Of a DNA stretch of 64,000 bases, positions 37,391 to 51,464 are shown piece by piece. Source of the stretch: Methylothermaceae bacterium. Lineage in GTDB: Bacteria > Pseudomonadota > Gammaproteobacteria > Methylococcales > Methylothermaceae. The stretch covers positions 1 through 64,000 of the forward strand of contig JALSIB010000038.1 of assembly GCA_026981855.1 (NCBI GenBank). Direction: 5' to 3'. Positions within the stretch are counted from its first letter, which is position 1. The number at the start of each line of letters is the position of its first letter. Below the pieces are notes generated by a model that ran no database searches, was not told where the DNA came from, and saw only the letters and a list, made by a program, of their open reading frames with translations. The translations under genes were made by a program, and so were the position numbers.

Positions 37391-38569
37391 ATGCGAATCT
37401 TTTCTCTCTTTTTGATGTTGATCGCCGCCTCGGCGGGGGCGCAATTCTATCAACCTCCGTTGCTGAACGCCCGGTGGCATCTGCATACCGCCGCCCTGGA
37501 GTGCCGTCTGATCCAGGAGATACCGCATCTGGGCCGGGTGGGGCTGGTGCAGGAAGCGGGGCAGCCTCTGCGCTTCGTGTTGCATCTGGCTCCCCGGGTG
37601 GAGATCGCCGATGCGAGCCTGCGGGTCGAACCGGCCCCTTGGCAACATCGGTTTCTGTCGGGCAACGCTTATCCGGTTTCCCGCCGGGGGGGAGAGAAGG
37701 GAGGGCGCCGGTTGGAGGTTCGAGGCGAGGTTGCAGACAGAATGTTGGCGGCGTTGTATGCCGGCCACTTTCCCGTATTCACCTTGCGCAAGCCCTGGCA
37801 GGGTGGTCTGAGTGAAGACCGGGTGGGGGTGTCGCCTGTCAGGTTGTGGGAGAACTACGACCGCTTCCAGAGTTGCCGCATGAATCTTCCCGATTTCGGC
37901 CCCCGGGATTTCGAGAATTTGCGTTTTTATTTCTTGCCGCATCAAGCCGGATTGCCAGGGAAACTGGAGGGCCTGCTGCCCAGAATGGTCCGGTATCTGG
38001 AGTTGTCGGGAAAGGGCGGGGTCGTGGTGACCAATGCGACGGCGGGGGTGGCCGGGCGGGAAGGGCGGTTATGGTTTCAGAAGCGTTTTGCCGCCATCAA
38101 GTCGACGCTCCGCCGGTTGGGGTTGAGTGGATCGAAGGTCACCAGTCGTTCGATACCCGGCAAACCGATGATCGATTTGACCCTTTTTGGCCCGGAAGGA
38201 TTGCTGTTATATCACTATGGGCGGCAACAAAAGTCCTTGCGCGGCGAACAGAAGCGCCGGTTATCGTTGTTGGCGCGCTATGTCCGGGACTATTTTCCGG
38301 GGAAAGTGGTGATTCATGGCCATAGTGATGGTGCGCGGTGGCGGAGCGAGAAGACCAACCGGGCCCTGGCGGCGAGATGGGCGGGGCGGGTCCACGATTT
38401 TTTGGTGACGGCCGGGGTCGGCCTGGACCGCATTGAAATCAGAGTATGGGGCTCGCGCAAACGGGTGGCCAGCAACCACAGCCGCGCCGGCCAGGCGAAG
38501 AACCGCCGGGTGCGTATCGAGTTGGTGGGTGAACCCGTGTTGACGGCGGAACTGGATCAATCGGGATGA
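37391..38569 (+). CDS. motY: MotY-like flagellar motor protein (T-ring)
   Basis: The 392-residue protein has a signal peptide (about 1-17), a MotY-type N-terminal domain (LLNARWHLHTAALECRLIQE then IPHLGRVGLVQEAGQPLRF) and a C-terminal OmpA-like peptidoglycan-binding domain (HGHSDGARW...NRALAARWAGRV...KNRRVRIEL). In Vibrio and Pseudomonas, MotY forms the T-ring that anchors stators to the polar motor. The FliA promoter supports a flagellar role. It is longer than Vibrio MotY (about 290) owing to inserted segments in the middle. It stands apart from the fliC block. Its 3' end overlaps the convergent NTP-transferase gene by 13 bp. Confidence 0.88.
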   Translation: MRIFSLFLMLIAASAGAQFYQPPLLNARWHLHTAALECRLIQEIPHLGRVGLVQEAGQPLRFVLHLAPRVEIADASLRVEPAPWQHRFLSGNAYPVSRRGGEKGGRRLEVRGEVADRMLAALYAGHFPVFTLRKPWQGGLSEDRVGVSPVRLWENYDRFQSCRMNLPDFGPRDFENLRFYFLPHQAGLPGKLEGLLPRMVRYLELSGKGGVVVTNATAGVAGREGRLWFQKRFAAIKSTLRRLGLSGSKVTSRSIPGKPMIDLTLFGPEGLLLYHYGRQQKSLRGEQKRRLSLLARYVRDYFPGKVVIHGHSDGARWRSEKTNRALAARWAGRVHDFLVTAGVGLDRIEIRVWGSRKRVASNHSRAGQAKNRRVRIELVGEPVLTAELDQSG

Positions 38570-39324
38570 TTCAGTAGTCGTCGGACGAATGAGAGGTCTT
38601 GTTCGGTGTCGATGTCGATGGCGGCTTCGGGGTAGGGGAGGACGATGAAAGCGGCCTTGATTCCCAGTTTTCTTTCCACCCGCCGGGCGGCCTCTTCTGT
38701 GGTCAGCCGGCCGGTCAGGTAAAGCAGCAAGGGCGCCAGGCCGAGCGCCTGGATCAGGCGCCAGGGGCGTTTTCTGTCCTGTTCCAGCTTTTTCCACAAG
38801 CGAATCAGTTCACGGCCCTTTGGTGTCAGGAAGGCGAACAGGTTACAGGTGCAGAAGGGGCCGTCGGAAAATTTCAAGGGTGTTCGTCTCACGCCCGGAA
38901 AGCGTGCCGCGACCTTCGCGTAAGGAACCAGCCCTACCGCCACGTCGGCGCCGCTTTCGACCGCCCGGCGGCAGAAGTCGTCGAAAACCCGGGGCTGCGG
39001 GAAGGCGATGTCGGCGGCGGTCAGCAGTACCGGCTGGTGATCATCGATCTGTTCCATGCAGCGCCAGGCACTCCGGCTGGGGGAGGCGTCCGGTGGAATC
39101 CATTCGGCCGGTTCGTCGAGGGTGATGTTTTTCCAGATGCCTTCTCCAGGGCCGCAAATGAGAATCCCGGCTATTTCCCGGGATTGCGCCAGCGCTTTCA
39201 GAATCCGCTCCAACATGGGCTTTCCGGCCAGGGGGACCAGGGCCTTGCAAGGTGCGTTGGCGGCCCTGGCGACGGGGTTTTCGTGTTCGCGGTCGGCGGC
39301 CAGGACGATTGCGGTGAATTTCAT
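38557..39324 (-). CDS. MobA-like nucleotidyltransferase in sphingolipid cluster
   Basis: The 255-residue protein has the N-terminal NTP-transferase signature FTAIVLAADRE...CKALVPLAGKPMLERILKAL, an ILLTAADIAF-like metal site (VLLTAADIAFPQP) and a PFCTCNLFAF core strand. The family transfers nucleotidyl groups to sugar phosphates, polyol phosphates or molybdopterin. Its start overlaps the stop of the acyltransferase gene (ATGA), so the two are coupled. Within this lipid cluster it could activate a polar head group as a CDP- or related derivative; that is inference. The frame is open further upstream, but there it is a shadow of the acyltransferase gene. Confidence 0.85.
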   Translation of the reverse strand: MKFTAIVLAADREHENPVARAANAPCKALVPLAGKPMLERILKALAQSREIAGILICGPGEGIWKNITLDEPAEWIPPDASPSRSAWRCMEQIDDHQPVLLTAADIAFPQPRVFDDFCRRAVESGADVAVGLVPYAKVAARFPGVRRTPLKFSDGPFCTCNLFAFLTPKGRELIRLWKKLEQDRKRPWRLIQALGLAPLLLYLTGRLTTEEAARRVERKLGIKAAFIVLPYPEAAIDIDTEQDLSFVRRLLNHPD

Positions 39325-40454
39325 GACAGTGATTTCTGGTAGATACGGTAGCGCTTGTAACAGCGGGCGCCCAGGTTTTCGATGATGTTTCGCATTCTCA
39401 GATTGTCTTCCAGGATCCAGGACAGTTCCAGCCGTCGCAACCCCCGTTCGCGTATCGGTTGTCGGAGCGCCTCGATCAGAAGGTAGGCGATCGCCGCGCC
39501 CACCAGGCTGTTTTGATGGCGCCGGCGCACCCCCATCAGAATGACCCTGCCGCTGTCGGGATAACGGGTTTTCCAGCGCCACAACAGTTTGACCCAGTTG
39601 AAGGGGAGAAGCCGTCCGTCCAGATTGCCGAGTAGTTGGTTGAGATCCGGTATCACGACGATCATTCCCGCCGCTTCGCCATCGAACTCGGCGATCTGCA
39701 CGAAATCGTCCCGGATGATGTGGCTGAGCGTCCTGGCTATTTCGGAAAATTCTTTCTCGGTGAACGGTACGAATCCCCAGTTCCCGGACCAGGCGTCGTT
39801 GAAAATCTGCCGCAACAGTTCGAATTCCCGCAGCAGGTTTTTTCTCTCCAGCGGGCGCACATGGACTTCCCGCGCCGCCTTGGCGGCGAGGTTTCGCACC
39901 GGCCGGGGCAGTTCTGTTTCGGTATCGAGAAGGTATGCCAACAAGTCCTTTGCCGGACTGTATCCCCGTTTTTCGATGTGCGCCACATAGTAAGGGGGGT
40001 TGTAGGGCATCATGACCGCCGGGGGCAAATCGTAGCCCGCCACCAGTAAGCCGCATTCCTGATTGATGGACAGGTTGAAGGGGCCTTTCACGGTTTCCAT
40101 TCCTTCCCGTCGCAGCCAGCTTTCCGCCTGCTCGAACAGGGCGGCGAACACTTCCTCGTCGTCGACCGCCTCCAGCAAGCCGAAAAAGCCGGCATTGTCC
40201 GAATGCTGCTGCCGGTACAGCTCATCGATCTGGGCGCTGATGCGCCCCACCGGCCGGCCGTTTCGCCAGGCGATCCAGCCTTGCCATTTCGCGTGTTCGA
40301 AATAAGGATTGGCGGAAGACAGGTGGAGTTTTCTTTCCAGCCGCAGTGGCGGTATCCAGTTGGGATCGTCGCCCTGGATGGACCAGGGGACATGGATGAA
40401 ATCGGCCAGATCCCGGGGTGTTTGAACAGGCGTGAGTTTCAGATTCGTGTGCAC
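39321..40454 (-). CDS. GNAT-like acyltransferase, candidate bacterial ceramide synthase
   Basis: The 377-residue protein resembles the YghO/GNAT-like family: DFIHVPWSIQGDDPNWIPPLRLERK at the N-terminus, then GPFNLSINQECGLLVAGYD, PPYYVAHIEKRGY, FNDAWSGNWGFVPFTEKEF and a late ILMGVRRRHQNSLVGAAIA. Members beside serine palmitoyltransferase genes act as bacterial ceramide synthases in Caulobacter, N-acylating the long-chain base. Here it is divergent from an operon carrying all the other ceramide genes. It starts at GTG 40454, but no good ribosome site is visible, so the start is uncertain. An uncharacterised N-acyltransferase role is the alternative. Confidence 0.85.
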   Translation of the reverse strand: MHTNLKLTPVQTPRDLADFIHVPWSIQGDDPNWIPPLRLERKLHLSSANPYFEHAKWQGWIAWRNGRPVGRISAQIDELYRQQHSDNAGFFGLLEAVDDEEVFAALFEQAESWLRREGMETVKGPFNLSINQECGLLVAGYDLPPAVMMPYNPPYYVAHIEKRGYSPAKDLLAYLLDTETELPRPVRNLAAKAAREVHVRPLERKNLLREFELLRQIFNDAWSGNWGFVPFTEKEFSEIARTLSHIIRDDFVQIAEFDGEAAGMIVVIPDLNQLLGNLDGRLLPFNWVKLLWRWKTRYPDSGRVILMGVRRRHQNSLVGAAIAYLLIEALRQPIRERGLRRLELSWILEDNLRMRNIIENLGARCYKRYRIYQKSLS

Positions 40455-40542
40455 GGGTGGGGGTCGCTAAATTGGGTTCGTTGTTGCATCGTTGCCTTAA
40501 AGATACGGTTGATTGTGAATTAACAACACGCTATCCTTATGC

Positions 40543-40570
40543 ATAAGGAATAAGGAATAAGGAATAAGGA
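40543..40570. repeat. Tandem heptanucleotide repeat, 4 x ATAAGGA
   Basis: Four perfect head-to-tail ATAAGGA units occupy exactly 28 bp, 37 bp upstream of the candidate -35 element. The first unit overlaps the palindrome CCTTATGCATAAGG. Such repeats can change length by slippage. Confidence 0.85.
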
Positions 40571-40606
40571 GTCAGGAAGCGGGGTTGGTTTGTTTTTGTC
40601 ACAACC

Positions 40607-40636
40607 TTGTACCTGAAAAGGCGGAAATGCTATGAT
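40607..40636 (+). promoter_or_regulatory. Candidate sigma-70 promoter of the acyl-AMP ligase/Spt operon
   Basis: TTGTAC (40607-40612), an 18-base spacer and TATGAT (40631-40636) form the best promoter-like match in the control region. The -10 element differs from TATAAT at one position; the -35 match is only partial. It would give a leader of roughly 160 bases. Confidence 0.5.
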
Positions 40637-40799
40637 ATTTTTCGCTCATAGATTACCTTGCTTTCGCGTGAAAGCAACTAAAACAACAAGGATGAGGGCC
40701 TTCGGCAAGTTCAGGGCGGGGAGTCGTCTCCCGTTGCCGGGGGTTTCGTTGTTCGATGCTATGCCTACCAGTTTTGTGGATTTATAAGGGGAGAGGCTC

Positions 40800-42551
40800 T
40801 TGGGTGCTCAAGCTACGCCAACCGAGAATACGATACCTTTGCGGCGCGCCGATTTCGCCACATTGGCAGAAGCGCTGGATTACGCCGCATTGGGCCAGAC
40901 CGGCTGCAACTTCTACAATGGTAGAGGAGAATTATACGAGGTTCTGACCTACGCGGACCTGCGTGATCAGGCCATCGTTCTGGCGCATCGCCTGGCCGGA
41001 CTCGATCTTCCCAGAGAGTCCCGGGTGGCCTTGATCGCCGAGACGACTCCGGATTTCATCCGCTTCTTTTTCGCCTGCCAATATGCCGGATTGGTGCCGG
41101 TTCCGCTGCCCATCCCCTTCAGCCTCGGCAGCCATCAGGCCTATGTGCGGCAACTCAGGACCATGCTGCAAAGCTGCCGTCCCAGCATCGCCATGGCGCC
41201 GGAGAATTTCGTCAGTTTCCTGACCGAGGCGGCCGAGGGTTTGGATATCGACTATTTCGGCGCTCCGGAGGACTTCGAGCGCTTGGCGCCTGCGGAAACG
41301 GCGCTTCGGCCCCTCCAATCGGATGAGTTGGCCTATCTCCAATATACCTCGGGCAGTACCCGTTTCCCCCGGGGGGTCATGATCAGGCAGGCGACGGTCA
41401 TGGACAATCTGGCGGGGATTGCCCAATACGGCGTCTGTTTGCGGCCCGGTGACCGTGCCGTCTCCTGGCTGCCTTTCTATCACGACATGGGACTGGTGGG
41501 GCTGATGTTGACCCCGGTCGCCTCCCAGGTTTCCGCCGATTATCTGGGAACCCGTGAATTCGCCATGCGCCCGCGGCAATGGTTGGCCTTGATGTCCAAA
41601 AACAAGGCCACCATATCCTTTGGCCCTCCTTTCGGCTATGAATTGTGCATGCGCAGGCTCAGGCCGGGCGAGGCCGCCAAGTTCGATCTGAGCGCCTGGC
41701 GGGTCGCGGGTGTCGGGGCCGAGATGATCCGTACCGAATCCCTGCGGGGGTTTGCCAGGGCGTTGGCGCCCGCGGGATTCAGGGAAGAAGCTTTCCTTCC
41801 TTGTTACGGGATGGCGGAATGCTCGCTTGCCGTCACCTTCGCCCCGCTTGAGCAGGGGCTTAAGGTGGACCGGGTGGACCGGGAAGTGTTGGCCGTGAAA
41901 GGGGAGGCTGCGCCGGTCGAGGATCCGGATCAGCCCTTCAACGAATTCGTGGATTGTGGGCGCCTGCTGCCGGGCTTCGAACTCAAGGTGCTCGACGGCG
42001 AAGGCAACGAGGTTTCCGAACGCACCATCGGCACCATCCATTTGCGTGGGCCCAGCGTGATGTCGGGGTATTTCGAGGATGCCGAAATGACTTCCCAGGT
42101 TCTTTCTTCCGATGGCTGGCTCAATACCGGAGATCTGGGTTATTTCGTGGGGGACAGGCTCTTTTTGACCGGGCGGCAGAAGGATCTCATCATCGTCAAC
42201 GGCCGCAATATCTGGCCCCAGGATCTCGAATATCTGGCCCATCAGCAACCTGAGGTCCGTCCAGGCGACGCCTTGGCCTTTGGTGTTCCAGGTTCCGATG
42301 GCAGCGATCTGACCGTTCTCGTGGTCCAGTGCCGGGAGACCGACGAGGCGAAAAGGGCCGATCTCAAAAAGAGGATTCGATCCCGGGTGCAGTCGGAAAT
42401 CGGGGTTGATTGCATCGTCGAATTGGTTCCGCTTCATACCTTGCCGCGGACTTCCTCCGGCAAGCTGTCGCGTTCCAAGGCCCAGCAGAATTATATCGCC
42501 AGTCACGACTTCACGCATCGCGAATCCCGGGGAAGGCGCGCCGCGGTATGA
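40800..42551 (+). CDS. Fatty acyl-AMP ligase / acyl-ACP synthetase
   Basis: The 583-residue adenylating enzyme has the A3 motif YLQYTSGSTRFPRGV (about residues 178-192), FYHDMGLVGLM, PCYGMAECSLAVTFA, and TGRQKDLIIVNGRNIWPQDLE. These are the FadD32/FAAL-type signatures rather than those of ordinary acyl-CoA synthetases. It would activate a fatty acid and load it onto the carrier protein encoded two genes downstream, like the acyl-ACP synthetase of the Caulobacter ceramide pathway. It begins at TTG 40800, just after AAGGGGAGAGG. It is the first gene of the rightward operon; the next gene starts six bases after its stop. Confidence 0.92.
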   Translation: MGAQATPTENTIPLRRADFATLAEALDYAALGQTGCNFYNGRGELYEVLTYADLRDQAIVLAHRLAGLDLPRESRVALIAETTPDFIRFFFACQYAGLVPVPLPIPFSLGSHQAYVRQLRTMLQSCRPSIAMAPENFVSFLTEAAEGLDIDYFGAPEDFERLAPAETALRPLQSDELAYLQYTSGSTRFPRGVMIRQATVMDNLAGIAQYGVCLRPGDRAVSWLPFYHDMGLVGLMLTPVASQVSADYLGTREFAMRPRQWLALMSKNKATISFGPPFGYELCMRRLRPGEAAKFDLSAWRVAGVGAEMIRTESLRGFARALAPAGFREEAFLPCYGMAECSLAVTFAPLEQGLKVDRVDREVLAVKGEAAPVEDPDQPFNEFVDCGRLLPGFELKVLDGEGNEVSERTIGTIHLRGPSVMSGYFEDAEMTSQVLSSDGWLNTGDLGYFVGDRLFLTGRQKDLIIVNGRNIWPQDLEYLAHQQPEVRPGDALAFGVPGSDGSDLTVLVVQCRETDEAKRADLKKRIRSRVQSEIGVDCIVELVPLHTLPRTSSGKLSRSKAQQNYIASHDFTHRESRGRRAAV

Positions 42552-42557
42552 GGCGCA

Positions 42558-43502
42558 GTGGCTGAGCCTCCCCCTCTCGTTGCCCTGACGGGTGCGACAG
42601 GTTTTATTGGCCGTTGGATCGCCCGCCATCTGGTTGCCACTGGATGGCGGGTTCGCGTTTTGGTCCGGCCGGGATCCGAAAAACGCCTGCCGGATTTGCC
42701 CCTCGATATCTGTTTTGGCAGCCTGGAGGATGTCTCGAGCCTGCAGTCCCTGCTGACAGACGTTCAGGGGGTGGTTCATTGCGCCGGTGTCGTCCGCGGA
42801 ATTTCCCAACGGGATTTCGATGCGGTGAATGCCGCCGGTACCCAAAGGCTGGCGCAGGTCGCCGCCGATGTGGGGGTGGACAGGTGGGTCATGATTTCTT
42901 CCCTGGCTGCGCGTGAGCCACAATTGTCGCCCTATGCCCTGAGCAAGCGGCGGGGAGAACAAGCCCTTCAGGCGCTTGGAGACCGCCTGCCCTGGATCAT
43001 TTTCAGGCCCCCGGCGGTGTATGGGCCGGGCGACCGGGAAATGTTGCCGCTGCTCAAAGCGATGGCGCGAGGGATCGTGCCGTTGATAGGCGACCGGGAC
43101 GCCCGTTTTTCCCTGATCTATGTGGAGGATCTGGCCAGGGCGGTCGGGGCCGCCCTGAATGCCTCCCGTGTGTCGGAGGCGTTGTTCGAAATCGATGATG
43201 GCCATAGCGGCGGTTACAGCTGGCAAGAGGTGATCGACATCGCCGCTGAATATCGCAACAAACCGGTTCGCGCCGTGCCGGTGCCGGAGGGGCTGTTGCG
43301 GGCCATGGCGAGGCTGTCCCTCGCCGCTTCGCGGCTGCGTGGCAAGATGCCAATGTTGACGCCGGCGAAGGTGAACGAACTTCGGCATCCCGACTGGGTA
43401 TGCGACAATACCGCTGTCTGTGAGACGCTCGAATGGCAGCCGCAAATACCTTTTTCCATCGGCCTGGCCAAAACCCTGGCCCCTGATCAATCTGTTTCCT
43501 AG
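42558..43502 (+). CDS. NAD-dependent epimerase/dehydratase-type reductase, candidate ceramide reductase
   Basis: The 314-residue extended SDR protein has the Rossmann loop GATGFIG (residues 12-18) and the catalytic SPYALSKRRGE (Y126 and K130). In the ceramide pathway of Caulobacter an SDR of this type reduces the 3-keto group of the long-chain base or oxidised ceramide, and this gene has the matching neighbourhood. A sugar-nucleotide or other lipid ketoreductase role is the alternative. It starts at GTG 42558; the start has no strong ribosome site and may depend on translation of the upstream gene. Confidence 0.87.
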   Translation: MAEPPPLVALTGATGFIGRWIARHLVATGWRVRVLVRPGSEKRLPDLPLDICFGSLEDVSSLQSLLTDVQGVVHCAGVVRGISQRDFDAVNAAGTQRLAQVAADVGVDRWVMISSLAAREPQLSPYALSKRRGEQALQALGDRLPWIIFRPPAVYGPGDREMLPLLKAMARGIVPLIGDRDARFSLIYVEDLARAVGAALNASRVSEALFEIDDGHSGGYSWQEVIDIAAEYRNKPVRAVPVPEGLLRAMARLSLAASRLRGKMPMLTPAKVNELRHPDWVCDNTAVCETLEWQPQIPFSIGLAKTLAPDQSVS

Positions 43503-43509
43503 AGGTGTC

Positions 43510-43758
43510 ATGAAAACTTATCAAGATATCCTGAATGAATTGCTGGAAACCATCCGGCCATTGGCCCCCAATGCGGACTCATTGACCGAAGACACCGAAT
43601 TGATGGGAAATCTCGGTCTCGATTCCATGAAGGTGATGAATCTGCTTCAGGAGGTGGAGGATCATTTTGATGTTTCCATCCCCATCAATGTCTTGCCGGA
43701 TGTCCGGACGGTGGGGGATCTGGCCCGGAAAATACACGAGATTCTGGGCGAACGATGA
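43510..43758 (+). CDS. Dedicated acyl carrier protein
   Basis: The 82-residue acidic helical protein has the phosphopantetheine site GNLGLDSMKVMNLL with S39 as the modified serine. It starts at ATG 43510 after an AGAGGTG site, shortly after the reductase stop, and overlaps the Spt start (ATGA). It is not the housekeeping AcpP, which lies with fab genes. A special carrier protein that supplies acyl groups to serine palmitoyltransferase is a known part of bacterial sphingolipid clusters. The IPINVLPDVRTVGDLARKI tail is typical of secondary carrier proteins. Confidence 0.94.
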   Translation: MKTYQDILNELLETIRPLAPNADSLTEDTELMGNLGLDSMKVMNLLQEVEDHFDVSIPINVLPDVRTVGDLARKIHEILGER

Positions 43759-44954
43759 AGCTTCTGGAGAAATTCCAGGCGCTCGGGCAAGCCCGTGACC
43801 AGCTCAAGAATCTGGGCGTGGATCCCTTCAACGTGGTGGTCGAGAAGATCCTTTCGCCCACCGAGGCGATCGTCAACGGCCATCGGGTGATTCTGGCCGG
43901 AACCAACAATTATCTGGGCCTGACTTTCCATCCCGAATGCATCGCCGCCGCGGAAAAGGCATTGCGCGAAGAAGGGTGCGGCACCACCGGATCCCGCATG
44001 GCCAATGGCAATTATGCAGATCACCTGGCCCTGGAAAGGGAATTCGCCGAATTTTACCGAAAGCCCTACAGCGTGGTCTTTTCCACCGGCTATCTCGCCA
44101 ATCTGGCTCTTCTTTCCACTCTGCCCGGCGCAGACGACGTCATTCTTCTGGACGCCGACTGCCATGCCAGTATCTATGACGGTTGCAAGATGAGCCCCGC
44201 CGAAGTGATCCGGTTTCGCCACAACGATGTCGACGATCTGGCCAAAAGGTTGCGGCGGTTGAAAGACCGGGCGCAAAGGACGCTGGTAGTGGTGGAAGGT
44301 CTTTACAGTATGCTCGGTGATACGGCTCCCTTGAAGGCCATTGCCGAAATAAAGGATGAATACGGCGCCTGCCTGATGGTGGACGAGGCGCATTCCCTGG
44401 GTGTGCTGGGGGAATCCGGGCGTGGTTTGGCCGAAGCGGAAGGCGTCGAGGCGTTGGTGGATTTCACCGTCGGAACCTTCAGCAAGAGCCTGGGCGCCAT
44501 TGGAGGCTATTGTGTCAGCCCCCATCGGGAATTGGACATCCTGCGCTACACCGCCCGCCCTTATATCTTCACCGCTTCCTCCTCTCCGGCGCAGATTGCT
44601 TCGACCCGCGTGGCTTTGCGGTTGCTGCGCGATGGGGGCGAACTGAGACGGCGGTTGTGGTCCAATGCCGAGCGTTTCCATCAAGGTCTTTCGTCGCTCG
44701 GGTGCCAGCTGGGGCCGCAAATGAGCCCGGTGATCCCCATCCTGCTCAGTGAATCGCGGGAAGACTCGCTTCTGGTTTGGCATGAATTGTTGCAGAACGG
44801 CGTTTACGTCAATCTCGTCATGCCGCCGGCGACCCCGGATCACCGCTGTCTGCTTCGTTGCAGCATGAGCGCCGCCCATACGCCGGAGCAAATCGATCAG
44901 CTGTTGGAAACCTGCGCCAAAGTGTTTGCCGCCCACGGCCTCGTGTCCCACTGA
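43755..44954 (+). CDS. spt: Serine palmitoyltransferase-type alpha-oxoamine synthase
   Basis: The 399-residue PLP enzyme has ILAGTNNYLGLTFHP, GTTGSRMANGNYADH, the stacking histidine in DADCHASIYDG, DEAHSLGVLG (210-219) and the PLP lysine K244 in VGTFSKSLGAIGGYC. The GTFSKS form around the lysine is typical of serine palmitoyltransferases, unlike the AON synthase or KBL versions. It would condense serine with an acyl thioester to 3-ketosphinganine. ATGA overlap with the carrier-protein gene and TGATG overlap with the ABC gene place it in one operon. An autoinducer-synthase-like (CqsA) role is less likely given the carrier protein and acyl ligase. Confidence 0.92.
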   Translation: MKLLEKFQALGQARDQLKNLGVDPFNVVVEKILSPTEAIVNGHRVILAGTNNYLGLTFHPECIAAAEKALREEGCGTTGSRMANGNYADHLALEREFAEFYRKPYSVVFSTGYLANLALLSTLPGADDVILLDADCHASIYDGCKMSPAEVIRFRHNDVDDLAKRLRRLKDRAQRTLVVVEGLYSMLGDTAPLKAIAEIKDEYGACLMVDEAHSLGVLGESGRGLAEAEGVEALVDFTVGTFSKSLGAIGGYCVSPHRELDILRYTARPYIFTASSSPAQIASTRVALRLLRDGGELRRRLWSNAERFHQGLSSLGCQLGPQMSPVIPILLSESREDSLLVWHELLQNGVYVNLVMPPATPDHRCLLRCSMSAAHTPEQIDQLLETCAKVFAAHGLVSH

Positions 44955-46681
44955 TGAGATTGCTTTTCCGCTTCGTCTGCAAATATCCCTGGCAGAGCGC
45001 CGTCGTCATGATGGCTCTGGTGCTGGCGGGATTGGTGGAAGGGGCGAGTATGACGGCGCTGCTTCCGATTCTGAGTACGGCGGTTGAACACGGCGGGGAA
45101 TTGGATCCCGGCGGCGATGGCAAGAGTGCCTTCTTGCTGCGGGGATTGAGATGGCTGGGTTTGACGCCGACCATGGGGATTCTGATCGCCGTGGTGGTGG
45201 CGGGGACGATCGTGCGCAGTGCCCTGACCCTGTTGGCCAACAAGTATGTGGGGTATACCATCGCCAGGGTGGCCACCGATCTACGTCTCACCTTGTTGAA
45301 GGCCTTGCTGGCCGCCCGCTGGCCGTTTTATCTGCGCCAACCGGTCGGAGCGTTGGCCAACGCCATGTCGAGCGAACCGGATCGGGCCTCCAAGGCCTAC
45401 TTCTTCGGTATTTCGATGATCGCCGGGTCGATCCAGATGCTGGCCTACATCGTCGTCGCGGCGACGATTTCCTGGCGTGCGACTTTTGCCTATTTGTTGG
45501 GCGCCTCGCTGGTATTGCTGTGTTTGTTTTCCCTGGTGCGGATGGCCCGCAGGGCCGGCAAACGGCAGACCAAGATCCGCAAGGCCTTGCTGCGTCAGCT
45601 GACCGACTGCCTCCAGTCGGTTAAGCCTTTGAAGGCCATGGGGCGGGAAGATCTGGTGGACCGGGTCATCGCCAGTGAGACGCATCGCCTGAACCGGGCG
45701 TTGGAACGGGAAGTGTTGAGCAAGGAAGCGTTGAAAGCGGTCCAGGGGCCTGCCTTTCTGGCATTGGTGGCGACCGGTTTTTATGTGGGCCTGATGCGCT
45801 GGCACATGCCGCCGGCGGAAGTCATGGTGCTGCTCATGCTGCTCAGCAGGGTGATGGCGGGAATGGGTAAGATCCAGCGCATGTATCAGAGCATGGCGGT
45901 ATGTGAAAGCGCCTACTGGTCGTTGAACAAGACCATCCAACAAGCGGAAACCCAGGTCGAGCAACTGGGAGGGGAAATCCGGCCCACCTTGGAAAAGGGC
46001 ATCGAACTGGATCGGGTGGCGTTTTCTTATGATGGACGTGCCGTGGTCGACAATCTCTCATTGGCCATTCCCGCTTCCAGCCTGACCGCCTTGATCGGTT
46101 TTTCAGGCGCCGGGAAGACCACGGTGGTGGATTTGATCATCGGCCTGTTACGGCCCCAAAGTGGGCGGATTCTGATCGATGGGGTCGATATCGGAAAGCT
46201 CGATTTGCGTGCTTGGCGGCAAATGATCGGCTATGTTCCCCAGGAGAACCTGCTGCTTCACGATTCCATCTTCACCAACGTGACTTTCGGCGATACCCGG
46301 TTGGCGGAAGGCGATGTCGAATGGGCTTTGAAGGCGGCGGGTGCTTGGGAATTCGTTCGCGCCTTGCCGGAAGGAATGAATACGATGGTGGGTGAAAGAG
46401 GGGCCAGGCTTTCCGGCGGGCAGCGGCAACGCATCATGATCGCGCGGGCACTGGTGCATCGTCCGAAGTTGTTGATTTTGGACGAGGCCACCAGCGCGCT
46501 GGATCCGGAGAGCCAGCGTGCCATCTGCCGCTCGTTGCAACGACTGAAACAGGAGATCACCATTTTGGCGATTTCCCATCAGCCCATGATCGTCGAGATC
46601 GCCGATCGTATCTATCAGCTCGAAGCAGGCACCGCGCGCCGGGTCGAAACGACCGACGTTGCGGTGGCGGCGCTCAGCTGA
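44954..46681 (+). CDS. MsbA-like ABC lipid exporter, fused permease-ATPase
   Basis: The 575-residue half-transporter has six transmembrane helices in roughly the first 310 residues and a C-terminal ATPase with Walker A GFSGAGKTT, Q-loop YVPQENLLLHDSIF, signature LSGGQRQR and Walker B LLILDEATSALD. It is a type IV exporter resembling MsbA and other lipid or glycolipid flippases. The ATG overlaps the spt stop (TGATG), so it is the last gene of the operon. Export of the sphingolipid product across the inner membrane is the obvious inference. Its 3' end overlaps the convergent Hsp70 gene by eight bases. Confidence 0.93.
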   Translation: MRLLFRFVCKYPWQSAVVMMALVLAGLVEGASMTALLPILSTAVEHGGELDPGGDGKSAFLLRGLRWLGLTPTMGILIAVVVAGTIVRSALTLLANKYVGYTIARVATDLRLTLLKALLAARWPFYLRQPVGALANAMSSEPDRASKAYFFGISMIAGSIQMLAYIVVAATISWRATFAYLLGASLVLLCLFSLVRMARRAGKRQTKIRKALLRQLTDCLQSVKPLKAMGREDLVDRVIASETHRLNRALEREVLSKEALKAVQGPAFLALVATGFYVGLMRWHMPPAEVMVLLMLLSRVMAGMGKIQRMYQSMAVCESAYWSLNKTIQQAETQVEQLGGEIRPTLEKGIELDRVAFSYDGRAVVDNLSLAIPASSLTALIGFSGAGKTTVVDLIIGLLRPQSGRILIDGVDIGKLDLRAWRQMIGYVPQENLLLHDSIFTNVTFGDTRLAEGDVEWALKAAGAWEFVRALPEGMNTMVGERGARLSGGQRQRIMIARALVHRPKLLILDEATSALDPESQRAICRSLQRLKQEITILAISHQPMIVEIADRIYQLEAGTARRVETTDVAVAALS

Positions 46682-49439
46682 TCAGTTTCAAGCCGGGGGG
46701 CAAGGCTTCGCCGACCAGGCGTTGTTCGTCTTCTTCCGAGAGGGTTGAAATTTCATTCACCATGGCGAGCCAGGAGGCTGGCGCCTTGCTTTGGCGGAGC
46801 TTGGAGACGACCTTCTGACGCAGTTGGGGGTCGATGTCCCGGCTTCTGTCTCCGCTCATTCTCGCCAGCAGGGCCGCTGCGAATCCGAGCAGGGGACGCT
46901 TTTTGAAATCCATTTCCAGCAGCTGCTTCAGCCAGCCGCTGACTTCATCACGCGGCACCGTGTTGTGGCTGCTGCCATAGAAAGGGATGCGAGCGCCGAT
47001 TCTGCCCAGTGCCCAGGCGGTCTGTTCAGGTTCCCTCGGGTTGTCCGCGAGACGTTTGAGCAGCCATCGCCCAAGGAGGGTTTTATCATCGGCCGGCAGA
47101 TGTTCCAGTACCGCGGCCAAGCGCACGATGTTGTCGTAGCTGCGTTGTTTCGCCAGGGTCGCCAGCTTTCCCTTGCGGCTCTTGACAGGGTCCAGGTAGT
47201 CCCGGATATCGGAGAAAATGATTTCCTGGGCCGGTCTTTCCAGGCCTCCGGCAATCCGGCGCCAAAAGGTCCACCATTCGGCCCAGTTCTGGATCACATT
47301 GACGAATTGCAGTCCTTGGGAATAGAGGTGCCAGACTTGCTCGATCCGCCATTCGTCCAGCGGGTAACCGAAACCCGGCCGCAGGCAGAATCCGCTGAGG
47401 CTGAGCCAGCCGCGTTCGTGGTCGGCGCTGCGGCGGCGGAATCGGCTCCCTTGCAGGAGGACGTCGGCCAGCTCGCGCAGGAGAGGAATGTCCCAGCGTT
47501 GGCGCGGCCCCAGAAGGGATTCCAATTCGCTGCGCAAGGTCTTGACGAGCTTGGGGGAAACTTCTCTGGATTTCTTGCCGAATACCTTGGCGATCAGCGC
47601 CTGCGCTTCTTCCAGGTGGGGATGGGAAGCGTCCTGGAGGCTGATCCGGGGCGTGTTCCGGCGTAGTTCGAATGCCAGGCGCCAGCGCTTTCGGGGATCG
47701 TCGCAGGCGACACAAACCAGCTCCAGCGTGCCGATTTCCGTCAGCCGGGTCGCGAGCCTTACCTCGATTTCCTGGGTTTGGCCGGTTTCCAGGGCCACCG
47801 CCAGGGGGGGCAGAGGAGTAAAGTGTTCCGCCGTGATATCGACCGTTTCCCCTGGCCGATGGCGCGCATCCTCGATGGAGGAAACCAAGTGAAAGCGTAC
47901 CGGTCGCCCCAGCCTGAGGGCGAAGATCCGGTCTTCGAGCAGGATCTCCCGTTCCTCTTCGGTACCCTTGGGAAGCAGGCAAATGCCTTCCGTCTGGCCC
48001 TTGCGGCCTTCGACGACCAGAAAATAACTGCGTGCGGAACCGCCACCGATTCTGGGTTGATGGCCCAGCCTCGCCAGGATCGAGCCGACAGCGCCCGAAG
48101 CCACGGCAAAATCCGGGTGCGGGTTTTCCAGCTGGTTGAGGGGCCGGGTACCCCAGCCGGAAACGACTTCCAGCAGCCTTTCGGTGATCATCCGGCTTTG
48201 AAAGACACCGCCGTTGAGCAGAATCGCATCGGGTACCGGAGGGGTCTGCGGGTCGTTCAGGGCTTCTGCGGCCGCCCGGGCATGGAGTTTGAGGAAGGCG
48301 GCGATATGCCGGGTGACGGCGGGGTCGCCCACATAGGGAAGACCGAATTCCACCAGGCCGCTTCGGATTCCCTGGGGGTGGTCGTCCAGGGAAACCCGGG
48401 GAAAGAATCCGTCCAATACGATCTTTCGTACCTCTTCCCGGCCCAGGGTGATGGAGCGGGCGCCACCGACCAACCGGCTGCCGCCACCGAGCAGGGTCAC
48501 CGGGGTGTGTTCCGGCGCGTCTTCGGAGAGCAGAAGTTCCTTGGCGGCGCGGCATTGTTCGACCAGCATGGAGAAATCGGCGGCGGACAATTTTCGATCC
48601 GGAGCGCTTAGGCGTTCTTCCGCCAGATGGGCCAACATCAGATCGATATTGTCCCCCCCAAGCAGGAGATGATCTCCCACCCCGATCCGGGTCAATTTGG
48701 GTCGCCCGGTACCGTGATCGATGCGGATCAAGGTAAGATCCATGGTGCCGCCACCCAGATCGACCACCAGCATCAGCCTGCTCGGGGTCAAGGGTGAAAG
48801 GTCCTGGCGATGCCGGTACAACCAGTCGTAACAGACAGCCTGCGGCTCTTCCAGCAAGCGCGGGTTGCCCAGGCCCGCCCTGGCGGCGGCCTCCAGAGTC
48901 AGTGCGCGGGCGGATTCATCGAAGGAGGCGGGAACCGTGATCACCAGTTCCTGCCGCTCCAGGGGGGCGGAAGGGAAGCGAAGGTTCCAGGCATTGCGCA
49001 CATGGGCCAGATAGCTTGCGGTGGCAATCAGGGGGGAGACTTTTCCGACTTCCCGTGGGGCGCCCCAGGGCAGGATGTCGGCCGTTCGATCCACACCGGC
49101 ATGGCAGAGCCAGCTTTTGGCGCTAACGACCAGCCGGCCGGGGCTCTTGGCTCCGAGACGGCGCGCCAGCTCGCCGACGACGGCGTTGGGCACCGGGTCT
49201 CCGATCGAGGGAAGGGGCCAGGGCAGTTGCAACGCCTCGGGAGCCAGTTCGTCCGCAGCCGGATGATAACGAAGCGAGGGAAGCAGTGGGCACGAAGCGA
49301 TTTCACCGGGGGCGATCAATTGGGGGATCGGGAAACGTTCGATCGCCGTTTCCCGATCCCTGGAAAGATCGGCATAGGCAACCACCGTATGGGTGGTTCC
49401 CAGGTCGATGCCGACAAGATACTTTGCGCCTGTTGCCAC
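46674..49439 (-). CDS. Divergent Hsp70 family protein with long C-terminal domain (DUF3731-like)
   Basis: The 921-residue protein starts with an Hsp70 ATPase domain: VGIDLGTTHTVVAYAD, AVCYDWL-adjacent LLEEPQ, LVVDLGGGTMDLTLI and ILLNGGVFQSRM. It replaces the canonical peptide-binding domain with a beta-rich section (about 480-620) and a long helical C-terminal region (about 630-921) of the DUF3731 type seen in some Hsp70-like proteins. Its start (GTG 49439) lies three bases after the stop of a second Hsp70 gene. Hsp70s couple ATP hydrolysis to client binding; the client here is unknown. No DnaJ or GrpE is in the window, so it is not the housekeeping DnaK. Confidence 0.9.
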   Translation of the reverse strand: MATGAKYLVGIDLGTTHTVVAYADLSRDRETAIERFPIPQLIAPGEIASCPLLPSLRYHPAADELAPEALQLPWPLPSIGDPVPNAVVGELARRLGAKSPGRLVVSAKSWLCHAGVDRTADILPWGAPREVGKVSPLIATASYLAHVRNAWNLRFPSAPLERQELVITVPASFDESARALTLEAAARAGLGNPRLLEEPQAVCYDWLYRHRQDLSPLTPSRLMLVVDLGGGTMDLTLIRIDHGTGRPKLTRIGVGDHLLLGGDNIDLMLAHLAEERLSAPDRKLSAADFSMLVEQCRAAKELLLSEDAPEHTPVTLLGGGSRLVGGARSITLGREEVRKIVLDGFFPRVSLDDHPQGIRSGLVEFGLPYVGDPAVTRHIAAFLKLHARAAAEALNDPQTPPVPDAILLNGGVFQSRMITERLLEVVSGWGTRPLNQLENPHPDFAVASGAVGSILARLGHQPRIGGGSARSYFLVVEGRKGQTEGICLLPKGTEEEREILLEDRIFALRLGRPVRFHLVSSIEDARHRPGETVDITAEHFTPLPPLAVALETGQTQEIEVRLATRLTEIGTLELVCVACDDPRKRWRLAFELRRNTPRISLQDASHPHLEEAQALIAKVFGKKSREVSPKLVKTLRSELESLLGPRQRWDIPLLRELADVLLQGSRFRRRSADHERGWLSLSGFCLRPGFGYPLDEWRIEQVWHLYSQGLQFVNVIQNWAEWWTFWRRIAGGLERPAQEIIFSDIRDYLDPVKSRKGKLATLAKQRSYDNIVRLAAVLEHLPADDKTLLGRWLLKRLADNPREPEQTAWALGRIGARIPFYGSSHNTVPRDEVSGWLKQLLEMDFKKRPLLGFAAALLARMSGDRSRDIDPQLRQKVVSKLRQSKAPASWLAMVNEISTLSEEDEQRLVGEALPPGLKLIS

Positions 49440-49442
49440 CGG

Positions 49443-51464
49443 TTATTTTTTGAAGGGCCAGAATGCGGGTTTTTGCTCCCGCTCATTCTCTTGCGGTTGC
49501 TCGCCAGAGGTATCGGAGGCGTCTTCTTCGACCTGAGGCGTTTCAGTTTCGGGAGGAACTTCTTCAGGTTCTGCCTCCGACGTGTCAGGCGTGACCGGCT
49601 TTTCGCCACCCCCCGTCTGCGGCTGGGCTTCCTGTCCCCTGACCTCGAATTCGATTTTCCAGCGTTCTCCGGTATCTTTGGCGACCGCTTCCAGGCGCAG
49701 TGTGCCGACCTCGGTATAAGTGGCCGCCAATTGGACCGGCACCACATCGCCGGGATTGTGATGTTCCGGAGACAGCGTCACCTCGATTTCGGTCAATTCC
49801 TCGATCTCGTCGCTGTACCACTGGTCGAGCAGCGCGCCCACCGGGTCATCCCGGCGGACCGTCGAGGTGAAGAAGCGGAAGCGTACCGGTTCCCCCACCA
49901 CCAGTCCGAATTCGTATGGGGGCAGGGGGGCCTCGGTGCCTTCTTCCATCCCGAAGGGGGCGACGCACAGCAGGCGGATTGGAGGGGGGAAGCCGGGAAC
50001 CGCCGGCATGGCGCTTTCCACCCCGATATAGTAAGCGGCGGCGGTGCCGCCACGGATTCTGACGCCTCCCCCCTGGCGGACGTAACTGTAATAGGACGCC
50101 CCCCGAGCCACGGCCAGGTCGAGGTCGGCGCCTTCGAGCAGGCGGGCGGAGGGGGCGCCGTCGGAGTCGAGCCAGTGGTTGACCACCTCCAGAATCCTTT
50201 CCGACAGAACCTCCGCCTTGAATACGCCGCCGTTGAGCAAAATGGCGGAAGGGTGAATAAAACGGGCGGCAGGTGGTAACGAGACGCCTTCCAGTTCGTC
50301 CACGGCCCCCACCTGGCGGCTGAGGAAATGGGCGAGATGGGCGGTGATACGGGCATCCTGGGCATAGGGAAGCCCCAGCGTGGTTAAACCGGTGCGGGGT
50401 CTCGACGCGGGTTTTTCCCCGATCTCGACCTGAGGGAAGAAACCCTCGATGAGGGTGCGGCTGACTTCTTCCCGGGTCAGATCGGCGCGCAAGGTTCCCC
50501 CGATCAACTTGGATCCGCGGCTCGGTACGGTCACCGCCGATTGCGGCAGATCCGGGTCGGCCAGCAGCCGTTCCTTGGCTTCGCGGCAGCTGTGGGTCAG
50601 GGCCTGAAGCTGCCAAGGATCGAGCATCTTTCCTTCCTGTTCCAGCTTCATCTTGACCACGTAGGCCAAGGCGAGGTCCATGTTGTCGCCACCGAGGAGG
50701 ATATGTTCACCCACCGCCACACGGTTGAGTTCGAGATTTCCATCCTGTTCAGTCACCGCGATCAGCGACAGGTCGGTCGTGCCGCCTCCCACGTCCACCA
50801 CCAGGATGATGTCTCCCACCTTGACCTGTTCGCGCCATTTTCCTTCGGTCCGCTGAATCCAGCTGTACAGCGCCGCCTGGGGTTCTTCCAGCAGGATCGC
50901 CTGCTCCAGCCCCGCTTCGCGGGCGGCTTCGGCGGTCAGTTCCCGGGCTGCGGGATCGAAGGAGGCGGGCACGGTGATGACCAGATCCTGCTGTTCGATC
51001 GGCATTTCCGGATGATGGTGGTTCCAGGCGTCCCGAAGGTGCAGCAGGTATTCCAGCGAGGTTTGGTAGGGGGAGATACGCGGAACTTCCTCGGGCGCCT
51101 CGATGGGCAGAAAGGCGTCTTTGGGATTGACTCCGGCATGGCAAAGCCAGCTTTTGGCGCTCGAGACCAGGCGGATCGGGGTTTTGCTTCCGAGTTCCCT
51201 GGCCAGCTGGCCAACAATGTGGTCCACGTTTTCACGCCATGGAAGCACCTTGTCCTCGGGTCGGAGTTCATCCGGATGGGGAAGATAGAGAAAGGAAGGC
51301 AGCTGGGTCCGCCCTTCCACTTCTCCCGGCGCGATCAGTTGGGGGATCTCCATGATTTCGACCGGTGCCGTGTCGCGGTCACACAGATTCAGATCGACCC
51401 ATGCCACGACGCTGTTGGTGGTACCGAGATCGATCCCGATGGCGTAACGTTTGTCTTCGCTCAT
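49443..51464 (-). CDS. Divergent Hsp70 family protein with acidic tail
   Basis: The 673-residue protein has an intact Hsp70 ATPase core: IGIDLGTTNSVVAWVD, ILLEEPQAALYSW, ILVVDVGGGTTDLSLI and ILLNGGVFKAEVL. A short beta-sandwich-like region follows (about 520-610), then an acidic Pro/Glu-rich tail ending KPAFWPFKK. It shares the unusual SSAKSWLCHAGV segment with the neighbouring Hsp70, so the two are ancient paralogues. Its ATG overlaps the DUF2760 stop (ATGA). The tail differs from DnaK's EEVD-like ends. The function is unknown; a chaperone pair recruited to a membrane partner is inference. Confidence 0.92.
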   Translation of the reverse strand: MSEDKRYAIGIDLGTTNSVVAWVDLNLCDRDTAPVEIMEIPQLIAPGEVEGRTQLPSFLYLPHPDELRPEDKVLPWRENVDHIVGQLARELGSKTPIRLVSSAKSWLCHAGVNPKDAFLPIEAPEEVPRISPYQTSLEYLLHLRDAWNHHHPEMPIEQQDLVITVPASFDPAARELTAEAAREAGLEQAILLEEPQAALYSWIQRTEGKWREQVKVGDIILVVDVGGGTTDLSLIAVTEQDGNLELNRVAVGEHILLGGDNMDLALAYVVKMKLEQEGKMLDPWQLQALTHSCREAKERLLADPDLPQSAVTVPSRGSKLIGGTLRADLTREEVSRTLIEGFFPQVEIGEKPASRPRTGLTTLGLPYAQDARITAHLAHFLSRQVGAVDELEGVSLPPAARFIHPSAILLNGGVFKAEVLSERILEVVNHWLDSDGAPSARLLEGADLDLAVARGASYYSYVRQGGGVRIRGGTAAAYYIGVESAMPAVPGFPPPIRLLCVAPFGMEEGTEAPLPPYEFGLVVGEPVRFRFFTSTVRRDDPVGALLDQWYSDEIEELTEIEVTLSPEHHNPGDVVPVQLAATYTEVGTLRLEAVAKDTGERWKIEFEVRGQEAQPQTGGGEKPVTPDTSEAEPEEVPPETETPQVEEDASDTSGEQPQENEREQKPAFWPFKK

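Follow-up and report, generated by a model that had tools for sequence, protein, structure and literature searches.

The literature describes clusters built around serine palmitoyltransferase (spt) in E. coli B, Azotobacter, and Pseudomonas luteola, and biochemical work on the homologues from E. coli B and from Caulobacter supports a role in ceramide synthesis (PMC9386255, PMC11324152). In Caulobacter crescentus, the genes for ceramide and CPG2 lie in the region CC_1168-CC_1152, and this organism survives without lipid A if an anionic sphingolipid is made (PMC10964400, PMC12275187). Sphingomonas, an alphaproteobacterium, has glycosphingolipids instead of LPS (PMC10964400). A further cluster is found on the Pseudomonas plasmid pPNP1.

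Here, we compare with these systems a locus from a member of the Methylothermaceae, a family of methanotrophs, located in a window of 64,000 nucleotides (contig JALSIB010000038.1 of assembly GCA_026981855.1, positions 1 to 64,000). The ceramide cluster by itself belongs to a type familiar from Caulobacter and from most E. coli. In the host and its close relatives, every lipid A gene tested has been lost, and for this reason sphingolipids probably now make up the outer cell surface.

The ceramide locus and its relatives

The cluster spans positions 38557-46681 and consists of two divergent, close-packed units, in which every gene is an open reading frame. The reverse strand encodes a MobA-like nucleotidyltransferase orthologous to CC_1153 (38557-39324; ATG at 39324, stop at 38557; PF12804), whose start overlaps by 4 bases the stop of cerS (39321-40454; PF00583), the gene for a GNAT-type ceramide synthase (bCerS) orthologous to CC_1154 and to E. 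coli YghO. Across a divergent intergenic region of 345 bp (40455-40799), the forward strand opens with aasR (40800-42551; NF006624), a fatty acyl-AMP ligase or specialised acyl-ACP synthetase gene that starts with TTG, preceded by AAGGGGAGAGG. It is followed by cerR (42558-43502; PF01370), predicted to encode an SDR-type oxidised-ceramide/3-ketosphinganine reductase, and by acpR (about 43510-43758; PF00550), for a dedicated acyl carrier protein with its serine in a GLDSM motif. The latter lies directly 5' of spt (43755-44954), with a 4-base overlap, and the stop of spt is in turn overlapped by the start of a gene for an MsbA-type ABC half-transporter, a candidate sphingolipid flippase (44954-46681; PF00664 and PF00005). 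Scans of the window for Rfam families and tRNA genes returned no matches, and a sigma-70 scan gave fewer sites than expected by chance.

The initial annotation had placed all five ceramide functions in these two units, and the open reading frames, profile matches, and gene order confirm this; it left uninterpreted two further likely pathway genes of the same region, those for the CC_1153-like nucleotidyltransferase and the ABC transporter.

The spt cluster of E. coli B and BL21(DE3) (yghO, fatty acyl-AMP ligase, epimerase, ACP, and spt) has the same five genes in the same order, with cerS likewise in its own transcription unit, divergent from aasR-cerR-acpR-spt. E. coli differs in that lptG/lptF and a gene for a MOP-type flippase, but no ABC gene, lie downstream, and in that it makes LPS. 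The order FAAL-SDR-ACP-Spt-ABC transporter recurs on pPNP1, which like the host has lptG/lptF and a nucleotidyltransferase gene nearby, but is plasmid-borne, has a kinase gene, and carries an IS element beside cerS. The Caulobacter cluster has in common with the host the five ceramide orthologues and CC_1153 beside cerS; orthologues of CC_1161, CC_1159, CC_1158, and CC_1152 also occur in the host genome (the comparison used Caulobacter sp. AP07 and its relatives). Unlike in Caulobacter, the host genes are distributed over three places, an ABC transporter stands in place of CC_1166, and no homologue of the CC_1160 kinase was found.

Within the host genus, spt is present in all ten genomes and the gene order is conserved. 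Because this order is kept both in the genus and in E. coli BL21, the cluster is far beyond chance, and since its flanks are also conserved in the genus, a recent transfer into the host genome alone can be rejected. The expectation in the initial annotation that sphingolipids would be unusual in gammaproteobacteria is not borne out: apart from the published clusters, spt occurs in 4042 of 5426 complete E. coli genomes and, in a sample of 369 genomes from the class, in 21.

The five ceramide genes are 43-53% identical to their E. coli BL21 orthologues and 40-57% to those of Caulobacter sp. AP07. AasR scores 814 bits against NF006624 (cut-off 600) and is 48% identical to its counterparts in E. 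coli BL21 and Caulobacter; the corresponding values are 44.9% and 39.7% for CerR, 42-43% to both for AcpR, and 46.6% (to YghO) and 44.9% for CerS. A PDB sequence search with CerS found no match; its AlphaFold model (pLDDT 93) has a tandem-GNAT fold according to a fold search.

Regarding Spt, its score against NF047599, the curated serine palmitoyltransferase (SPT) model, is 610 bits (cut-off 500). The GTFSKS lysine motif noted at the outset is present as G240-T-F-S-K244-S, and K244, the PLP lysine, aligns to K265 of Sphingomonas SPT (2jg2), whose residues H159, D231, H234, and R390 correspond to H137, D210, H213, and R368. In the tree, Spt and the E. coli B enzyme, which has been characterised, fall in a single clade of alpha-, beta-, and gammaproteobacterial SPTs (support 100/100), apart from BioF and Kbl. 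Spt belongs to the same superfamily as AON synthase, KBL, and CqsA and reaches 337 bits on the BioF profile, which would be the ground for regarding it as an enzyme of one of these types and the cluster as unrelated to sphingolipids. However, it falls under the cut-offs for BioF (426), Kbl (460-493), and CqsA-type enzymes (210 bits against 428) while exceeding that for SPT, and a separate BioF (485 bits) is encoded in the host genome. These scores and the tree, which covered BioF and Kbl and left CqsA to be excluded by profile score, lead us to reject the three assignments, which retain practically no probability. The phylogenetic comparison that the initial annotation had called for thus came out in favour of SPT, with the CqsA part answered by profile.

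A related but different product, such as 1-deoxyceramide from alanine, a sulfonolipid, or another N-acyl amino ketone, deserves more thought, as the amino acid substrate varies among alpha-oxoamine synthases and R378 of the Sphingomonas enzyme is replaced by Met in Spt. Yet the active E. coli B enzyme, which shares its clade and makes 3-oxosphinganine, has Leu at this position (PMC9386255), the NF047599 score is well over the cut-off, and in a PDB search the nearest solved chains were Sphingomonas SPTs, with cysteate acyltransferase more distant. We therefore regard such a product as very unlikely.

The assignment of all five functions to ceramide synthesis is thus supported, at the level of sequence and predicted fold, by the orthologues, the Spt clade, and the tandem-GNAT model of CerS. 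From gene identity, order, and conservation, we infer the enzyme activities and the lipid structure as follows: AasR would load a fatty acid onto AcpR, Spt would condense the acyl group on AcpR with serine to give 3-ketosphinganine, CerS would add the second acyl chain, and CerR would reduce the ketone.

Lipid A genes in the host genus

Lipid A genes were searched, with positive controls, using an eight-protein E. coli query (FtsZ, FabZ, LpxC, LpxD, LpxA, LpxB, LpxK, and WaaA). In seven of the ten genus genomes, only FtsZ and FabZ were found by this query, and lpxA, lpxB, lpxC, lpxD, lpxK, and waaA are absent: G000, G001, G003 (one contig), G004, G006 (five contigs), G008, and G009 (two contigs). 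All eight proteins were found in the sister genomes G002 and G007, with identities to the E. coli query of 51-53% for LpxC and 30-48% for the other five enzymes, and nine genomes from other families yielded most or all of the eight; an LpxC profile search agrees, and another spt-positive genome without LpxC is G381. The fragmentary genome G005 yielded only FtsZ, with FabZ, LptD, and LptF/G also missing; it counts little, and no claim on lipid A rests on it. A binning artefact is an unlikely cause of the absence, because the genomes in one, two, and five contigs also lack these genes.

The sister genomes have the order bamA-fabZ-lpxA-rnhB-dnaE, and G000, G001, G003, G006, and G009 have bamA-skp-fabZ-rnhB-dnaE, so that lpxA is gone from an otherwise preserved fabZ-rnhB neighbourhood. 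In the tree, the six LPS-less genomes included form one side of a branch with 100% support, and one loss of the lipid A genes suffices. The initial annotation, in proposing that sphingolipids would alter the envelope, had the direction right and understated the change, since lipid A genes are missing from the host genome. In the part of the literature that was covered, we found nothing linking Methylothermaceae to LPS loss.

3-OH fatty acids are a hallmark of lipid A. None are listed in the published table for five Methylothermaceae strains, although the chemotaxonomy behind it was not designed for amide-linked acids or long-chain bases. In the same source, 2-OH C16:0 amounts to 4.8% and 8.4% in two strains, the table gives no 2-OH fatty acids for Methylohalobius crimeensis or Methylomarinovum tepidoasis IN45, and Methylomarinovum caldicuralii contains major phospholipids of unknown type (PMC10950024). 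An OlsC/LpxO-like acyl 2-hydroxylase gene lies near the CC_1161 locus. The missing 3-OH acids are supportive of a lack of lipid A in the cells, and no more than that.

Could lipid A still be made by enzymes too divergent for the query, or unrelated to it, with sphingolipids as accessory components, as presumably in E. coli B? The retention of kdsB in G000 suggests that Kdo is still made for something, LptD, LptF, and LptG are kept, and LpxC is present in 19 of 20 other spt-positive Gammaproteobacteria genomes; an spt cluster alone does not imply LPS loss, since LpxC persists in E. coli and in almost every other spt-bearing genome examined. Against this, six separate enzymes are jointly missing from near-complete genomes while the same query finds all of them in the sisters, lpxA has been cut out of a conserved neighbourhood, and the published profiles lack 3-OH fatty acids. 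We consider hidden lipid A synthesis improbable and prefer its replacement by sphingolipids.

Such a loss would be natural and fixed in the host lineage, as opposed to conditional in Caulobacter. It resembles Sphingomonas in that a free-living, sphingolipid-bearing proteobacterium naturally lacks lipid A (for the host, as judged from genes), and differs in the class, in the independence of the loss, and in the presence of genes for a phosphoglycerate-type headgroup, as against glycosphingolipids, which have been shown in Sphingomonas.

Headgroup genes and proposed transport

In Caulobacter, CC_1153 is needed for ceramide diphosphoglycerate. The nucleotidyltransferase of the host is 34.6% identical to the product of the gene that immediately follows cerS in Caulobacter sp. 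AP07, and its gene adjoins cerS in 41 of 51 loci (those of at least 17 kb having cerS). Orthologues of CC_1161, CC_1159, CC_1158, and CC_1152 are found at C8 and C9 of genome G000, with 34-48% identity to alphaproteobacterial homologues; those of CC_1159 and CC_1152 adjoin, and the series lptF-lptG-phosphoesterase-CC_1161 is linked across the genus. Together with the nucleotidyltransferase, these four gene products may build an anionic phosphoglycerate-type headgroup. A search of seven genus genomes for the ceramide kinase CC_1160, made with one query, the Pseudomonas kinase homologue, gave no match, so that a divergent kinase is possible, and the headgroup route has either a gap or a different kinase.

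As for transport, the ABC gene immediately follows spt on the same strand in all genus loci that were read at length, and in 70 loci it never co-occurs with the MOP flippase gene. LptD, LptF, and LptG are retained in the LPS-less genomes, and lptF/lptG adjoin the sphingolipid headgroup genes. The ABC transporter may flip the sphingolipid across the inner membrane, with LptF/G and LptD carrying it to the outer leaflet, where it would stand in for LPS. We tentatively propose, giving it slightly less than an even chance, that this free-living gammaproteobacterial lineage naturally has no LPS, that it keeps the Lpt bridge (LptF/G and LptD) solely for carrying a sphingolipid, and that the bridge is fed by a dedicated MsbA-type flippase whose gene lies directly behind spt.

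As a whole, we judge it likely that the cluster works as a ceramide pathway of the Caulobacter/E. coli B type and supplies the ceramide for an anionic sphingolipid that has taken the place of LPS, with a single loss and the Lpt and headgroup parts included in this account. A single replacement of LPS appears to have taken place in this gammaproteobacterial lineage, which has near relatives on both sides of the loss. The ABC and MOP genes, which exclude each other, form a pair of concrete candidates for the sphingolipid flippase that has been missing, and if Lpt carries a sphingolipid in these bacteria, the view of Lpt as an LPS-only machine would fall.

Gene families of the ceramide cluster

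The ceramide region of the window is made up of two divergent transcription units. On the minus strand, a gene for a MobA-like nucleotidyltransferase resembling Caulobacter crescentus CC_1153 (38557-39324) overlaps by 4 bases that for a GNAT-type protein, the putative ceramide synthase CerS (39321-40454). On the plus strand lie genes for a fatty acyl-AMP ligase, AasR (40800-42551; NF006624 score 814, cut-off 600), an SDR, CerR (42558-43502), an acyl carrier protein, AcpR (about 43510-43758), the serine palmitoyltransferase (SPT) Spt (43755-44954; NF047599 610 bits, cut-off 500), and an MsbA-type ABC half-transporter (44954-46681), with overlaps of a few bases linking the last three, one with the next. 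Pfam and NCBIfam return the same families that the initial annotation had given, and we regard the assignment to ceramide synthesis as nearly certain. The divergent intergenic region contains AAGGAAT short tandem repeats (40540-40570), which could be a length-variable element, and directly after the cluster (46674-51464) there are two neighbouring Hsp70-family genes, the first of which is kept there in most of the genus.

Sphingomonas SPTs are the best solved relatives of Spt, and alignment with one of them (2jg2) places its catalytic residues H159, D231, H234, K265, and R390 at H137, D210, H213, K244, and R368. The position of 2jg2 R378 is occupied by Met in Spt and by Leu in the SPT of E. 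coli B, an active enzyme (PMC9386255). In a maximum-likelihood tree, Spt groups with the SPTs of E. coli BL21, Caulobacter sp. AP07, and others (support 100/100); the separation from related enzymes at issue in the initial annotation is thereby borne out for BioF and Kbl, the tree holding no CqsA. Spt was also rejected as a BioF, Kbl, ALAS, or CqsA-type enzyme because it scores below all their cut-offs and above that of NF047599; a separate BioF is encoded in the genome. CerS shows 47% identity to E. coli YghO and 45% to its orthologue from Caulobacter, and its model (pLDDT 93, built on 52 homologues) is matched by tandem-GNAT structures such as 2wpw, which supports an N-acyltransferase fold, the substrate being outside what a fold shows.

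The five ceramide-synthesis genes of Caulobacter, also present in E. coli B, have already been published, together with an assay of the E. coli B SPT with acyl-AcpR (PMC9386255), and clusters from Azotobacter and Pseudomonas luteola are in print (PMC11324152). E. coli BL21 has a divergent five-gene layout identical to that of the window. Among complete E. coli genomes, 4042 of 5426 carry spt, and a sample of 369 genomes of the host's class contains 21 that have it with a score above the curated cut-off. The cluster is therefore not a novelty among gammaproteobacteria, nor is it a rarity, contrary to the earlier statement that sphingolipids are unusual there. Another family of the order (G010 and G017, loci L015-L016) has a distinct SPT-like enzyme nearest to the Bacteroidetes-type model; that of L016 scores 504 bits with NF047600, under the cut-off of 640.

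Lipid A genes in the host genus

The window belongs to contig C38 of a genome of 2.75 Mb. Complete genomes have been published for Methylomarinovum tepidoasis IN45, with 2.42 Mb and a 20.5 kb plasmid, and for M. caldicuralii IT-9, with 2.69 Mb (PMC10950024). All ten genomes of the genus have spt, and the seven of them besides the window's own that were read at length keep the whole cluster in order, with the same flanking genes except at contig or stretch ends or where a flanking gene is absent.

LpxC had no match in the window's genome. With a joined query of E. coli FtsZ, LpxC, LpxD, FabZ, LpxA, LpxB, LpxK, and WaaA, seven of the ten genomes, including G003 (one contig), G009 (two), and G006 (five), gave matches to FtsZ and FabZ alone, and the fragmentary G005 to FtsZ alone. 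All eight proteins were matched in the sister genomes G002 and G007, and most or all in nine genomes from other families of the order. The surroundings of fabZ read bamA-skp-fabZ-rnhB-dnaE in the LPS-less genomes, whereas G002 and G007 have bamA-fabZ-lpxA-rnhB-dnaE. A tree built from five proteins of the cluster sets the LPS-less genomes apart on a branch supported at 100%, with G002, G007, and the outgroups on the other side; a smaller flanking-gene tree, without outgroup, puts G001 beside G002 and G007 with support of only 50%, too low to speak for or against a single loss. The lipid A pathway has very probably been lost in the host lineage.

LpxC is kept in 19 of 20 other spt-positive genomes of the class that were tested; therefore, spt alone does not go with LPS loss. 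A second spt-positive genome of the class with no LpxC match is G381 (complete, one contig; spt locus L072), possibly an independent loss. In the window's genome, kdsB is retained (contig C37, L190:9465-10190, about 50% identity) despite the missing lipid A and waaA genes, and Kdo may be used there in capsule or another glycan.

Headgroup, flipping, and transport of a predicted sphingolipid

LptD is found in nine of the ten genomes, sharing its locus with surA and pdxA in G003 and the window's genome as in E. coli, and LptF and LptG likewise in nine. Across the genus, lptF/lptG adjoin genes for a CC_1158-like phosphoesterase and a CC_1161-like Tam41-family protein, and a separate locus pairs a CC_1159-like CDP-alcohol phosphotransferase with a CC_1152/CpgD-like nucleotidyltransferase. 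One ceramide kinase query gave no match; counting the CC_1153-like gene, the known phosphoglycerate headgroup set, as predicted from homology, is otherwise complete.

No bacterial sphingolipid flippase had been identified (PMC11087976), Caulobacter CC_1166 being a candidate only (PMC11324152). In 70 spt loci spanning at least 17 kb, the ABC gene occurs 34 times and the gene of a MOP-type flippase 12 times, the two never at one locus (Fisher p = 0.0002, shared descent ignored). Plausibly, the two genes serve the same function in different clusters, and the window's genus has the ABC gene rather than the MOP-type one.

Lipid A typically contains 3-hydroxy fatty acids, and bacterial sphingolipids 2-hydroxy ones. 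Five published Methylothermaceae entries list no 3-hydroxy acids; 2-hydroxy C16:0 is given as 4.8% for M. caldicuralii, where unknown phospholipids predominate, and as 8.4% for Methylothermus thermalis, with no 2-hydroxy acid listed for M. tepidoasis IN45 (PMC10950024). The 2-hydroxy C16:0 has a candidate origin in an OlsC/LpxO-like lipid acyl 2-hydroxylase encoded near the lptFG and CC_1161 locus (contig C8, L171:8085-8870), a gene present in LPS-less genomes, G009 among them, and also in LPS-bearing G007. Fatty acids and gene fit a sphingolipid in place of LPS, short of proof.

In the most likely pathway, AasR would load a fatty acid onto AcpR, Spt would condense the bound acyl chain with serine, CerS would N-acylate the product, and CerR would then reduce it, these steps being proposed from homology to assayed enzymes. 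A headgroup would then be added via nucleotide-activated intermediates, and the ABC transporter would flip the sphingolipid. We give even chances to Lpt as the carrier that would bring it to the LPS-free outer leaflet, where the sphingolipid is likely to be a functional replacement of LPS.
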